Origin: Bacteroidia bacterium
Lineage (GTDB): Bacteria; Bacteroidota; Bacteroidia; CAIKAF01
Direction: 5' to 3'
Length of the DNA stretch: 49,240 bases
NCBI GenBank assembly: GCA_030427255.1
Contig: JAUHWY010000025.1
Span: 1 to 49,240, forward strand
Shown: in pieces, positions 19,030 through 24,127 of the stretch
Position numbering within the stretch: the first letter of the stretch is position 1
Layout of the letters: the number at the start of each line of letters is the position of its first letter
Made by a program: the position numbers and the translations under genes
The notes under the pieces: generated by a model
What the model was told of the DNA's origin: nothing
Databases searched by the model: none
Seen by the model: only the letters and a program-made list of their open reading frames with translations

Positions 19030-19608
19030 ATGAAACTCCGTGTTACAACCGTTATGTTGGTCTTAGCTTCAGTAGGAGCAGTAGGCCTCAGCTCATGCAA
19101 AAGCAAAAAGGTGACCAAAGATCAAGTAGGTACCGAACTTAAAAGTTTGCCCTGCCAAGGTCCCAAGTACACCACCGACGACAAATTTTTCCGTTCCTCT
19201 CAAATTGGGACCTCCAGCGACATTTCTTTGGCAAAAGAAAAGGCCTTGACTTTGGCCAAGCAGCAATTGGCGGCTACGATTCAAACAAAGATTAAATCGG
19301 TAACCGACCGTTACGTTAACGAGCGCGAGATTGGCAACCAGTCCGATTTTAGCCAGAAGTTTGAGAACCTTACCCGTGAGGTTGTAGATCAAACCTTGAT
19401 TGATATCCGTACCGTTTGCGAGCAAAGCACCGTGCTTGAGGATGGCCGATTCCGCACCTTTGTTGCTTTGGAAATCAACAAAGAGACCTTAAAGAATGGC
19501 ATCAGCGAGCGAATTTCTCGTCAGGACTTGATTCAGTTGGAATACGACAAGAAAAAGTTCGAAGAGATTTTTGACGAGGAGATGCGTAAAATTGAAGAAG
19601 GACAATAA
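19030..19608 (+). CDS. LPP20-like lipoprotein A
   Basis: 192 residues. Residues 1-23 form a lipoprotein signal ending LSSC. The mature part contains FFRSSQIGTSSDISLAKEKA, LAKQQLAATIQ, and NQSDFSQKFENLTREV followed by a beta-rich RFRTFVALEI segment. This matches the LPP20/LPP20-like fold, in which an Ala-rich helix follows a beta strand. The role is not known; envelope assembly is a guess from the family. It is followed after 10 bases by a clear paralogue, so the two probably form one transcript ending at the hairpin at 20218. Confidence 0.8.
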   Translation: MKLRVTTVMLVLASVGAVGLSSCKSKKVTKDQVGTELKSLPCQGPKYTTDDKFFRSSQIGTSSDISLAKEKALTLAKQQLAATIQTKIKSVTDRYVNEREIGNQSDFSQKFENLTREVVDQTLIDIRTVCEQSTVLEDGRFRTFVALEINKETLKNGISERISRQDLIQLEYDKKKFEEIFDEEMRKIEEGQ

Positions 19609-19618
19609 AACCACGCCT

Positions 19619-20194
19619 ATGTTTGCCCGTAGTTCCCTTTTTATTTGGCTCATGTTGCTTGCCTTAAGCACCAACTATGCTTGCAAAAGCAGAACACCTA
19701 ATGTAGGTGGCGAAAAAGTTACCCGCCTAGACGAGCCCTTTAGTCAACGCAAATACCGTTCGAACAAGAAGTTCTTTAGGGCGGTAGGGTCAGCCGAAAG
19801 CAGCAATTTGAATTTTTCTAAAGAAAATGCGCTGTTTAACGCAAAAAAGGAACTGGCTTCTAACGTCAATACCATGATGAAAGGAGTTACCGAAAGGTAT
19901 GCGGGCGAACGTAACATTGGGAATGCCATGGAGTTTAATCAGAAATTCCAGGACATAACCCGAGAGGTTCTAAATACTCGTTTGGCAGGTGTTAAGGTTT
20001 TGGGTGAGGAGTCTTTTAAGAAAGACAACAATAGGTTTTTGACCTATGTAGCGGTGGAGATAGACATGGAGTCCTTTTACTTTGCCCTCACCGAGCGCAT
20101 TGCCAGCCGCAAGGAAATTAGGCAGGATTGGAATGCCGAAAAATTCCGAGAGGTTTACAATAGAGAAATGGACCGACTGTACGGCGAAGAGTAA
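19619..20194 (+). CDS. LPP20-like lipoprotein B (tandem paralogue)
   Basis: 191 residues from the ATG at 19619. A longer frame exists upstream, but that part overlaps the previous gene and would spoil the signal sequence. The lipoprotein signal is LFIWLMLLALSTNYAC. The mature part aligns along its whole length with its neighbour: KKFFRAVGSAESSNLNFSK, AKKELASNVN, GNAMEFNQKFQDITREVL and RFLTYVAVEIDMES. It is thus a tandem duplicate with moderate divergence. A strong terminator follows. Confidence 0.82.
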   Translation: MFARSSLFIWLMLLALSTNYACKSRTPNVGGEKVTRLDEPFSQRKYRSNKKFFRAVGSAESSNLNFSKENALFNAKKELASNVNTMMKGVTERYAGERNIGNAMEFNQKFQDITREVLNTRLAGVKVLGEESFKKDNNRFLTYVAVEIDMESFYFALTERIASRKEIRQDWNAEKFREVYNREMDRLYGEE

Positions 20195-20467: not shown

Positions 20468-21778
20468 CTACCACGACCATATTTGAGTAGCGGCGTAGGA
20501 AAGAATTAAGGATATGGAGCCTAGGTAAAAGCTGCGTTTGGGCAGGCAAAGTTGGAAGTCCGGGATGTGCACATGGAATGTGTAGGCCATGAGGAGTATT
20601 TTTTCGATGGCAAAGGCTATTACCGTGGCCCAGGCGACGCCGATGATGCCAAAGGATTGGATCCACCAAAGGCTGAGGCCAATGTTGAGCAGCCATTCTA
20701 TGATACCGATGGTGAGTAAGGCTCGGTTTTTGCCATGCGCGAGCAGCAAGGTTTGCGGAAAAAGCATGCGTGGAATCACCAGTAATAAGTAGAGTCGAAA
20801 GATTTCTGCGGAGGCCATGAAGTCGCTGCCAAAAAATAGCTTGAACAGTATTGGCGCGGTCCACATGAGCAAAATGGAGGGGACAAAGCTGAGCAAGAGA
20901 ATGCTTTTTTGGCTTGCATACCAATTTTGGTATGCGCCGGAGTTCTTGTAATTGAGGGCTTGGGATTCCGAAAATCCGCCGGCGAGTAGTTGGCTTAGTG
21001 GAAATTCGCGGGCGCCGTATTGGAAAATTAAAAAGGCCAGCGGACCTCCAAATCCAAGCACAATGGTACCGTCTATTTGCAGGCCATAGCCACCAATTAG
21101 GCTGAGAAAAATCAAAGGCCAGGAAAGGGATAAGAGCTGCTTTAGTTCTTTGATATTGAAGTCAGAGAGGTGGTTTCTAAGGGCGATGTTCAAGGCCCAA
21201 ATACTTCGCAATAAGGTTAATAGGGCGAGGCATTGAAAGATTTGGCTGATGGAAACCTCTGAGAAAATAGCAAAAGGGAGAAGGGCGAACAGGGGATAGG
21301 CGGTGTGCAGCAAGGAGCTCCAACGCCAGAGGGCTCGAAAATTGCTTTGGTGGAGCCAGAGGTAGTCGAGCAGAAATCCTGTAGTGAGGCCAAAGAACCA
21401 AAGCCTAAACCACCATTTTTCTTGGGGGCTGGCAAAGAGGTAGTTTCGGTCAAATTTTTGGGCAATCCAGGGTTCGAGCAATTCAAGGCTAAGTAAAGCA
21501 AGTAGGGCAAAAGCGGCAAGGCTGAAATAGCTTATAAGCCCCGGTTTTTTTGGGGCCCGGGTGGAAAGTCCGGCGCGGAGCAGTCCGGAGACCCATGCTT
21601 GGCTGAGCAGGGAACCGGTTAGGAGCAGGGCTTCGAAGCGGGCCAGTTCAAGGCGGTTGTTGAGAAGCTGCGCCATACCGATGCTCAAGAGCAGCAAAGA
21701 GGCGTATCTAAGTATTTGCTGCCATTGCCAAGCGTGGTCTTGGCGTAAATTGGAAAAAAACAAATAGAAGCTTTTCAA
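20468..21778 (-). CDS. Polysaccharide/O-antigen flippase-like membrane protein (MOP superfamily)
   Basis: A 436-residue, strongly hydrophobic protein with about a dozen membrane segments arranged as in Wzx/MATE transporters. The second half begins KQLLSLSWPLIFLSLIGGYGLQIDGTIVLGF, with a charged residue inside a membrane helix as is usual in this family. Such proteins move lipid-linked sugars across the inner membrane, but no glycan genes surround it, so the substrate is unknown. The frame has no ATG at its 5' end. The TTG at 21778 places a short polar segment before the first helix and is the best start; the next ATG lies inside helix 1. It is transcribed away from tRNA-His. Confidence 0.8.
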   Translation of the reverse strand: MKSFYLFFSNLRQDHAWQWQQILRYASLLLLSIGMAQLLNNRLELARFEALLLTGSLLSQAWVSGLLRAGLSTRAPKKPGLISYFSLAAFALLALLSLELLEPWIAQKFDRNYLFASPQEKWWFRLWFFGLTTGFLLDYLWLHQSNFRALWRWSSLLHTAYPLFALLPFAIFSEVSISQIFQCLALLTLLRSIWALNIALRNHLSDFNIKELKQLLSLSWPLIFLSLIGGYGLQIDGTIVLGFGGPLAFLIFQYGAREFPLSQLLAGGFSESQALNYKNSGAYQNWYASQKSILLLSFVPSILLMWTAPILFKLFFGSDFMASAEIFRLYLLLVIPRMLFPQTLLLAHGKNRALLTIGIIEWLLNIGLSLWWIQSFGIIGVAWATVIAFAIEKILLMAYTFHVHIPDFQLCLPKRSFYLGSISLILSYAATQIWSW

Positions 21779-21793
21779 TTTTGGAATAAACTG

Positions 21794-21801
21794 TATATTT
21801 G
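21794..21801 (+). promoter_or_regulatory. -7 promoter element of tRNA-His
   Basis: TATATTTG matches TAnnTTTG and lies 27 bases before the tRNA. No TTTG occurs 19 bases upstream, so the -33 part is weak. Confidence 0.6.
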
Positions 21802-21828
21802 CACTCCCTTTGAACAGGTCTTTGAAAT

Positions 21829-21903
21829 GGAGGGCATAGTTCAGTTGGTTAGAACGTCAGATTGTGGTTCTGAAGGTCGTGGGTTCGACTCCCACTGTTC
21901 TCC
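21829..21903 (+). tRNA. tRNA-His (anticodon GTG)
   Basis: Cloverleaf with the extra G(-1) typical of tRNA-His: G + GAGGGCA pairs with TGTTCTC + C73. The D-arm is TAGTTCAG. The anticodon stem TCAGA/TCTGA encloses TTGTGGT (anticodon GTG). The T-arm is GTGGG-TTCGACT-CCCAC. CCA is not encoded. The opposite strand of 21841-21903 is also the 3' end of the TraB/GumN reading frame. Confidence 0.95.
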
Positions 21904-22854
21904 CTTTTTTTCTTGAATGGGTTCCATAGTGAACCCATTTTTTTTGAGCTGTTCCAACAAGCCGTCTTTTCCTGGTAAGTATTCTGCGCCGACCAAAACC
22001 ACGAGGTTTTGGCTTTTGCTTTTGTCTAAAATGTTGGGCATCCAGTTGTTGACCTGTTGGGTAACCAAAAGATGGAACAAAGAGGGAAAAGGGTAGTATT
22101 GGTTCAGTTCTTGTTCCCAAGTAGTAATGTCTTTTCGGCATTGGTCTTTGAGGCAGATTTTGGCATAAGTTCTAATTTCACTCATGCGTTCGGGGAGCTC
22201 GGCCAAATAATTGACTTGTTGTTTAAGGGAAAAGGAATCGGAAAGAAAATGGTTTCGGCTTAGGTTAGACATAGGAATTCCTTGGGTAGAACCCATAGTC
22301 ATAAAGAGCGATTCCAGGGATTCGCTGTAGCCCGGTATATGTGAAATAAATGCGGCTTCTTCGAACACATTTCGCAGCAAAATCATGGGATATACCCGAT
22401 CGTAATCTTCCAAATTTACGTTAAGGCTGTCTACACACCAGCGTTTTAATTTTTGAAACTTTTCGGGGGATATTGCCGATTTAATGGTCCATTGATTCGG
22501 CATTTGAAAGGCTTCTAAAATGGAGTGCGGAGGGTTCACATTGGCGACCCGATTTTCGAGAAGGAGGTGGTCTGCCTCAACAATTAGTTTACGTTCGGTA
22601 CCGGAAAGGAGCACGCAAGGTCCGGTGGCTCTGCTAAAGCAGCCCTTTATGAAAATATACTGTTTTTGGTTTGGAGAAGTGGCTTTCCAAGCCAGTCCGG
22701 GAGCGGGCGTTTTGGTCTCCAAAGCAGCCTTTTCCACTTGGGAAGGCTTGGCTTTTGGAGTATTGCCACAGCCATTCAAAAGCACAAAAAAAGCGGCAAA
22801 CCATGCAAGGGATAGACTTATTCTTAAGCCTTTCGTTCCACTAAGGTAATCCAT
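21841..22854 (-). CDS. TraB/GumN-family lipoprotein whose frame reads through the antisense of tRNA-His
   Basis: 337 residues. The signal LAWFAAFFVLLNGC carries a lipobox (LNGC). The body matches the TraB/GumN/PrgY superfamily: KQYIFIKGCF near the start, ILEAFQMPNQW, and NLVVLVGAEYLPGKDGLLEQLKKNG at the end, where family members normally stop after a GFTxEPI-like strand. Here the frame continues through about 25 more residues (EKKGEQWESNPRPSEPQ...), most of them the opposite strand of tRNA-His. This suggests loss of the original stop. Its ATG lies inside the 3' end of the methyltransferase gene (31-base overlap), making it the last gene of the ffh operon. Function unknown; some relatives act on peptide signals. 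Confidence 0.82.
   Translation of the reverse strand: MDYLSGTKGLRISLSLAWFAAFFVLLNGCGNTPKAKPSQVEKAALETKTPAPGLAWKATSPNQKQYIFIKGCFSRATGPCVLLSGTERKLIVEADHLLLENRVANVNPPHSILEAFQMPNQWTIKSAISPEKFQKLKRWCVDSLNVNLEDYDRVYPMILLRNVFEEAAFISHIPGYSESLESLFMTMGSTQGIPMSNLSRNHFLSDSFSLKQQVNYLAELPERMSEIRTYAKICLKDQCRKDITTWEQELNQYYPFPSLFHLLVTQQVNNWMPNILDKSKSQNLVVLVGAEYLPGKDGLLEQLKKNGFTMEPIQEKKGEQWESNPRPSEPQSDVLTN
21916..21945 (+). terminator. Terminator of tRNA-His, embedded in the opposite gene
   Basis: AATGGGTTC and GAACCCATT form a perfect 9-bp stem with a 6-base loop, followed by eight T residues, starting 13 bases after the tRNA. On the minus strand the same bases encode the conserved end of the TraB/GumN protein. 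Confidence 0.85.
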
Positions 22855-23693
22855 CCTGTAAGCAATTTTTTTCCAAACTGGTCCTGCAAATAAAGTGGAC
22901 CATGGGTTATTTTTAGGTAAAAGGGTAGTTTATTGCTAAATAAGCCTTCTAAGATACTTGAAATTCCTTGGGCATAGGTATTTAAAATTAAAAAGCCATT
23001 GGGTTGGAGAAGATGCAAGGCATTTTCCCACAATTCGGGAATTTGGCTTTTGAGTTGCCAGCGTTTGCCACCGGGTGCTCTGCCAAAAGCGGGAGGGTCC
23101 ATAACCAGCCCCTTGTATGTTTTGCCTCTTTGGCGTTCTTTTTTAAGGAAGCTTAGAGCATCGTCGACAACCCAGCGGATGCCCTGTACATTTGACTTTT
23201 TTTGGTTAAGGGCGGTCCAATCTACCAATTGTCTTAGGGCATCTATATGAACTACATCGGCACCTGCTGCTTTGGCAGTAATGCTGGCAGCACCGGTGTA
23301 AGCAAAGGCGTTTAGGAACTTGGAATCTGCTTGGTCCAATAAAGTAGAATAGATGAACTCCCAGTTGACTTGTTGCTCCGGAAATAGGCCCACATGTTTG
23401 AATTGGGTGCGTTTTAGGTTCATTTTAAGACCGCTACCCACCGGGAGGCCAATGTCCCAATGTTCGGGCATGGGTTTAAAAAGCTCCCAAGTGCCTTGTT
23501 GGTGGCCGGTTTCGGTAAACCATGCATGGGCTTCTTTTTTCCAGTTTTTTAGCGGGGTGCCTGGTTTTTCAGAGGCTCGCGGGTCAGGGCGAACGAGTCG
23601 GTAATCTCCAAATTGTTCGTACCTGAATTGGTCGCCAAAATCAAGCAGTTGGTAATCGGCCCAGCCCGTGCTGCAAAATTCACGGAAGTGCAT
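22824..23693 (-). CDS. Class I SAM-dependent methyltransferase (RlmI/RlmK-like)
   Basis: 289 residues from the ATG at 23693, which shares one base with the stop of the thioesterase gene (TAATG). A longer upstream frame lies within that gene. Motif I is FLNAFAYTGAASITAKAAGA, the acidic ribose-binding loop is VVHIDALRQLVDW, and motif IV is VMDPPAFGRAPGGK. The DPPAFG form is typical of the COG1092 group, which methylates bases of 23S rRNA, so a nucleic-acid substrate is likely. The N-terminal 100 residues resemble the short beta domain of this group, without a recognisable PUA domain. Confidence 0.87.
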   Translation of the reverse strand: MHFREFCSTGWADYQLLDFGDQFRYEQFGDYRLVRPDPRASEKPGTPLKNWKKEAHAWFTETGHQQGTWELFKPMPEHWDIGLPVGSGLKMNLKRTQFKHVGLFPEQQVNWEFIYSTLLDQADSKFLNAFAYTGAASITAKAAGADVVHIDALRQLVDWTALNQKKSNVQGIRWVVDDALSFLKKERQRGKTYKGLVMDPPAFGRAPGGKRWQLKSQIPELWENALHLLQPNGFLILNTYAQGISSILEGLFSNKLPFYLKITHGPLYLQDQFGKKLLTGWITLVERKA

Positions 23694-24127
23694 TAGTTTC
23701 CAATTTTTTGGACAAACAAGGTAAGTTGTCCTTTGGCGGTTTTGTTTCCTTTTGGGTCGGTGCAAAGGGTTTCCCAAACTTGAACACTTTTGCCAATTCG
23801 CACGGGCCGGCAAATGGCCTCCACCGGGCCTTTATTTTCCAGAATGCCCCTTAAATGGCTCACATGAAGGTCAAGTCCTAATGCCAGATGGGTTTTAGGG
23901 TTTAGGGTCATGTTGGCGGCTACGCTGCAAATGGTTTCTATAAGAGCGGCCGTGGCTCCGCCATGCAATCTTCTAGCCGGTTGCACGGTTTGCGCATTTA
24001 CGGGCATTTGGGCTTTGAGGTAATCTTCTCCAATTTCCAAAAAACGGATGTCGAGATGATCAACCAGGCTGTTTTGGCACCAGGTGTCGAGCATTTCGGG
24101 ACTAAATTCTTTAAACCAAATGGGCAT
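23693..24127 (-). CDS. Hotdog-fold acyl-CoA thioesterase (PaaI/4HBT family)
   Basis: 144 residues, the usual size for a single hotdog domain. The signature RLHGGATAALIET includes the His-Gly-Gly loop and the catalytic Glu of the PaaI/MenI-type thioesterases. The central strand reads ALGLDLHVSHLRG and the last strand KTAKGQLTLFVQ. It hydrolyses some acyl-CoA thioester; the substrate cannot be read from sequence. Menaquinone-pathway and phenylacetate-type enzymes are both in this group. It begins four bases after the WD40 gene. Confidence 0.9.
   Translation of the reverse strand: MPIWFKEFSPEMLDTWCQNSLVDHLDIRFLEIGEDYLKAQMPVNAQTVQPARRLHGGATAALIETICSVAANMTLNPKTHLALGLDLHVSHLRGILENKGPVEAICRPVRIGKSVQVWETLCTDPKGNKTAKGQLTLFVQKIGN

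Follow-up and report, generated by a model that had tools for sequence, protein, structure and literature searches.

Introduction

Convergent overlaps that arise by extension of one gene at its 3' end are a described class, and, for those that are possibly real, conservation is said to be confined mostly to very close species (PMC2478687). Read-through antisense RNA between convergent genes has been documented in Rickettsia prowazekii (PMC3027695), and AntiFam includes spurious proteins derived from tRNA genes (PMC9710616). Here we describe a minus-strand gene for a TraB/PrgY/GumN-like protein that runs into the antisense of tRNA-His in the window (the whole stretch of DNA that was analysed, 49,240 nt, from the genome here called G000). 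As in the overlaps of PMC2478687, the gene that is longer at its 3' end enters a convergent neighbour, the partner has normal length, and the arrangement is found only in close species; unlike in those overlaps, the partner is a tRNA gene rather than a protein gene, tRNA being unmentioned in the main text of that study. Like the AntiFam proteins from tRNA genes (PMC9710616), the tail of the TraB-like protein reads tRNA DNA, here from the antisense strand; unlike for those proteins, this applies to the tail only, the 313-residue core being a domain protein with the signature of purifying selection (dN/dS about 0.13). The protein matches the profile of its family (PF01963) over the whole domain, but differs from its homologues by the loss of both histidine motifs and the addition of a 24-residue tail. 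As with intrinsic terminators that overlap convergent 3' ends, a hairpin and T run lie in the facing coding sequence. A search of literature titles yielded no bacterial protein gene ending in tRNA antisense, from which we do not claim absence from print.

Results

The TraB-like frame ends inside the antisense of tRNA-His

The junction comprises the following features:

21841..22854, minus strand: TraB/PrgY/GumN-like, lipoprotein-like gene of 337 codons (Pfam match; frame also in the congener G002)
21830..21904, plus strand: tRNA-His, GTG anticodon, 75 nt (ARAGORN; Rfam RF00005, 66.9 bits)
21905..21915: 11-base spacer from tRNA-His to the hairpin (9-bp core), where the stop of the facing gene would be expected
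21915..21940, plus strand: terminator-like hairpin of tRNA-His, with a T run that reaches 21945; covers NGFTMEPI, codons 306-313 of the minus-strand gene; identical in G002
21844..21915, minus strand: 24-residue C-terminal extension QEKKGEQWESNPRPSEPQSDVLTN, 20 residues of which are antisense to tRNA-His (comparison with G002 and homologue alignment)

The TraB-like open reading frame (22854-21841, minus strand) encodes 337 residues with the C-terminus ...NGFTMEPIQEKKGEQWESNPRPSEPQSDVLTN*. Its stop codon, TGA at 21843-21841, lies within the antisense of tRNA-His, and the frame has no stop before it reaches the tRNA; the ORF scan and the ARAGORN coordinates agree with the initial annotation, in which the gene reached tRNA-His without a stop. 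The overlap is 64 nt and consists of 20 sense codons (318-337), the TGA, and one base of codon 317, and the earlier figure of 21 codons, or 63 bases, antisense to the tRNA is correct when the stop codon is counted. The tryptic peptide from the tail is GEQWESNPRPSEPQSDVLTN. The tRNA-His gene is intact and of normal length, and is the single tRNA-His gene among the 36 tRNA genes found in G000.

The Pfam profile TraB_PrgY_gumN (PF01963) covers residues 56-312, up to profile position 263 of 263, with a score of 67.3 bits, above the curated cut-off of 26.8; a search of NCBIfam with the protein gave no match, and a structure prediction made from two sequences (mean pLDDT 37.6) was set aside. Because the profile finishes at residue 312, inside the hairpin codons 306-313, the hairpin encodes the end of the domain, as had been claimed. 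The hairpin has 10 pairs and a 6-nt loop followed by the T run, lies entirely within the TraB-like frame (N306-I313), and has a predicted fold of −12.9 kcal/mol (z −3.64; 0/200 shuffles equally stable). Many tRNA genes of G000 have a hairpin and T run on their 3' side, and we infer that the hairpin of tRNA-His works as a terminator.

The frame is retained in a congener

According to one explanation, an assembly or sequencing error deleted a stop codon at the junction: the assemblies of G000 and of the congener G002 (Flavobacteriales bacterium M30B58, JAGYKD010000002.1) are both split into many contigs, and that of G002 is a metagenome assembly. However, G002 retains the 337-codon frame together with its tail and stop, the protein being 85% identical to that of G000; a search of its junction found no stop codon before the tRNA; and its spacer has TTTGTTT in place of the seven T of the window, at equal length. 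Retention of the frame in G002 argues that it is not a sequencing error, and TTTGTTT at equal length argues against a homopolymer miscall. Since the identical frame occurs in a second species, we reject this explanation, the probability of which is close to nil.

Comparison of codons 1-297 between G000 and G002 gave dN 0.097 and dS 0.751, for a dN/dS ratio that indicates purifying selection on the TraB-like core. The Pfam match and the dN/dS ratio together rule out that the whole TraB-like frame is spurious. Both histidine motifs of the family, GT[IV]H and GA[AG]H, the histidines of which we take to form a metal site, are missing in G000 and G002 (KGCF/KGYF and GAEY), and the histidines are present in 5/5 homologues. 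Given the loss of both motifs, the protein may be an inactive family member under purifying selection.

In the G000-G002 comparison dS is 0 for codons 298-317, and 0/54 bases are changed in codons 298-315 (21963-21910), a stretch that was chosen post hoc and of which codons 298-303 lie outside the hairpin and its T run. Among earlier 18-codon windows 0/280 are unchanged, the least changed having 4 differences, and when 18 codons were drawn at random from codons 1-317, 100,000 times, all third positions were unchanged in 0.15% of the draws. The results are suggestive of double constraint on the hairpin codons, as terminator and as protein. The double selection on the hairpin that the initial annotation had offered as one of two alternatives thus draws support from the unchanged stretch, but its post hoc choice and the inclusion of codons 298-303 make that support suggestive rather than strict.

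Conservation of the tail over the tRNA, which rests on the two sequences G000 and G002, could also reflect selection on the tail at the level of the protein: all 20 tail residues encoded opposite the tRNA match between G000 and G002. The tRNA, however, suffices as a cause; the 21 codons over it carry one third-position change, which is silent; the sole residue change in the tail, K316T, falls in the tRNA-free part; and the tail is lacking in 5/5 homologues. From the sequence comparison, the tRNA alone explains the conservation of the tail over it, and a functional tail is very unlikely. Most likely, the 24-residue tail is a tolerated by-product.

Distant homologues end at the domain boundary

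PF01963 matches were present in 7/16 genomes of the family comparison. G000 and G002 each have one divergent copy (E about 1e-18 and 1e-17), and a clear member, at E 1.5e-56 or better, was found in each of five genomes (G010, G011, G012, G014, and G015); these members served as distant homologues. A second TraB-family match in G010 (L149) lies inside a 1237-residue open frame. An alignment showed that 5/5 distant homologues stop 1-3 residues past the I/V of the domain end and lack the tail. The corresponding letters are GYEVKPV, GYTLKAV, GYTVEAI, GFRLTPI, and GYQVSPV; what had been described as a conserved GFTMEPI is therefore conserved in position, whereas its letters vary among the five homologues. 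The first-fetched loci of the five homologues contained no tRNA, and 12-kb stretches around them contained a tRNA in 1/5 (G015, tRNA-Leu about 5 kb off); a long tail away from a tRNA was looked for and found in none of the homologues.

Because 5/5 distant homologues stop so close to the domain end, the 24-residue tail is an add-on peculiar to the tRNA-facing gene, and by this alignment the TraB-like gene extends further in the 3' direction than the homologues do. The absence of the tail in all five is what would be expected if a native stop was lost or never formed, but no relative was found in which this TraB gene lies next to the tRNA and has a stop of its own, so that the tail may date back to the origin of the arrangement. 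The two alternatives of the initial annotation both fit, each for a different stretch: loss of the stop for the tail, double selection for the hairpin codons. Most likely, the 11-base spacer either lost the native stop or never had one, and the antisense of the tRNA provides it instead.

Tight convergent packing at tRNA-His in the genus

The gene preceding the TraB-like gene on the minus strand is:

22824..23813, minus strand: SAM-dependent methyltransferase-like gene, overlapping the TraB-like start by 31 bases

Within the six species of the genus comparison (G000, G002, and four congeners), TraB was not detected in four, and no TraB orthologue besides that of G002 was found. In these four congeners a relative of the methyltransferase faces tRNA-His directly, with stops 18, 5, 5, and 19 bases away, from which we conclude that close packing at tRNA-His is the rule in the genus. 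Eight tRNA-His loci from other genera match neither the methyltransferase nor TraB. TraB may have been inserted in the line of G000 and G002 or lost in the other species. The antisense of tRNA-His is closed in all three frames inside the tRNA in 6/6 species of the genus; the tRNA itself therefore guarantees an end to a facing frame.

The same kind of packing recurs in the sequence of G000 at tRNA-Ala, where the C-terminal codons and stop codon of a convergent gene for an aldehyde dehydrogenase overlap the terminator hairpin (L102:2012-2057; −20.9 kcal/mol), in an arrangement that is near-identical in G002. The hairpin of tRNA-Ala contains the stop codon of the facing gene, whereas the hairpin of tRNA-His lies wholly in frame.

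According to the hypothesis that we favour, with a probability of about 0.8, the overlap arises because a protein operon and a tRNA gene are packed tail to tail. The divergent TraB/GumN-like gene, last of a minus-strand cluster, would end very near tRNA-His; the intrinsic terminator of tRNA-His would form within the final domain codons of that gene, and these codons would be held by two constraints together; and, since the 11-base spacer has no stop, translation would continue into the tRNA antisense and reach a TGA 20 codons on.

Possible antisense transcription across tRNA-His

The features that bear on transcription of the region are:

21794..21801, plus strand: Bacteroidota-type −7 box TATATTTG, 36 bases 5' of tRNA-His (consensus search)
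20468..21778, minus strand: flippase-like gene (by eye), TTG start at 21778; no Pfam match at 0.001

The box TATATTTG, which corresponds to the Bacteroidota −7 consensus, lies 34-36 bases upstream of tRNA-His in 6/6 species of the genus and is likely part of the promoter of tRNA-His, which very likely has one of its own. The start region of the flippase-like gene adjoins this promoter, and a consensus search found no Bacteroidota-type −7 box on the minus strand in 21779-22100. On the minus strand, the seven genes between 28952 and 21841 are closely spaced or overlap and form a putative operon. Because the TraB-like stop codon lies inside the tRNA, a full TraB-like mRNA must cover tRNA-His, and because the flippase-like gene has no −7 box in 21779-22100, read-through of the operon over tRNA-His is plausible. 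It is thus plausible, from the arrangement of the genes, that a minus-strand mRNA crosses tRNA-His, and we infer that the TraB-like protein is made with its tail.

Such a transcript invites a regulatory explanation, in which operon read-through lowers or tunes tRNA-His, or the converging polymerases interfere, linking the operon to histidine decoding. The position of the stop, the missing −7 box, the finding of only one tRNA-His gene in G000, and the precedent of read-through antisense between convergent genes in R. prowazekii (PMC3027695) fit this explanation. TraB, however, is absent from 4/6 species of the genus, which retain the tRNA and the convergent methyltransferase, and thus no conserved regulatory link via TraB is visible. 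We regard regulatory antisense as improbable; an effect of any antisense transcript on tRNA-His is possible but unsupported. Still less credence is due to the strongest version, in which antisense from an eight-gene operon would couple its output with histidine decoding at the only tRNA-His gene and the hairpin would be selected for both tRNA and protein.

The minus-strand mRNA might, instead, end before the stop codon, yielding a non-stop message and ribosome rescue, such that the long frame is never fully translated. The inverted repeat does fold on the minus strand too (−12.4 kcal/mol), but there it is followed by CAAGAAAAAAAGGG and not by a T run, and a search for terminator-like sites on this strand gave none close to the hairpin. 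A non-stop message is accordingly an outside chance, and tail-to-tail packing remains the reading that we prefer.

The overlap is rare

In a survey of the class (395 genomes), covering one of the three antisense frames, a frame of >100 residues occurred in G000 and G002 only (362 and 356 residues; next 91) among the at least 150 matches listed. A check of all three frames at 42 tRNA-His loci, three of which were counted twice (39 distinct), likewise found only G000 and G002 to have an open reading frame that enters the tRNA and is 150 residues or longer. A widespread tail is rejected, the long frame occurring in 2 of the at least 150 class matches listed.

Across all 36 of the 36 tRNA genes of G000, an antisense open reading frame of at least 100 residues is present at four: His, Pro, Ser, and Leu. 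The three other than His each span the whole tRNA, are 129-149 residues long, and have no Pfam match:

L100:1934-2383: antisense ORF over tRNA-Pro
L105:1775-2218: antisense ORF over tRNA-Ser
L110:2021-2410: antisense ORF over tRNA-Leu

These three ORFs are probably due to chance, and tRNA-His is the sole tRNA of the 36 overlapped antisense by a domain-bearing gene. Searches of viral contigs found no relative of the TraB-like protein, and searches of plasmids found no match to it. The tail alone matched 33 plasmid records; 24 of the 25 listed have no annotated feature there and the remaining record is unannotated, which is what the gene table used would be expected to show for tRNA genes.

We conclude that the overlap is real, conserved, and rare, yet an ordinary outcome of convergent packing. 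It is a clean case, seen in two species, in which a protein gene takes its stop from tRNA antisense and carries a tRNA terminator in its coding end. Gene callers and filters that bar overlap with tRNA could trim or lose such genes, and the tail may pass for a spurious tRNA translation. The overlap is a small oddity of dense gene packing that leaves the picture of mechanism unchanged, unless there is antisense RNA over tRNA-His.

Elsewhere in the window, on the plus strand at 19030-20194, two adjoining, overlapping open reading frames look by eye like paralogues, the second matching LPP20 lipoprotein weakly, below the cut-off.
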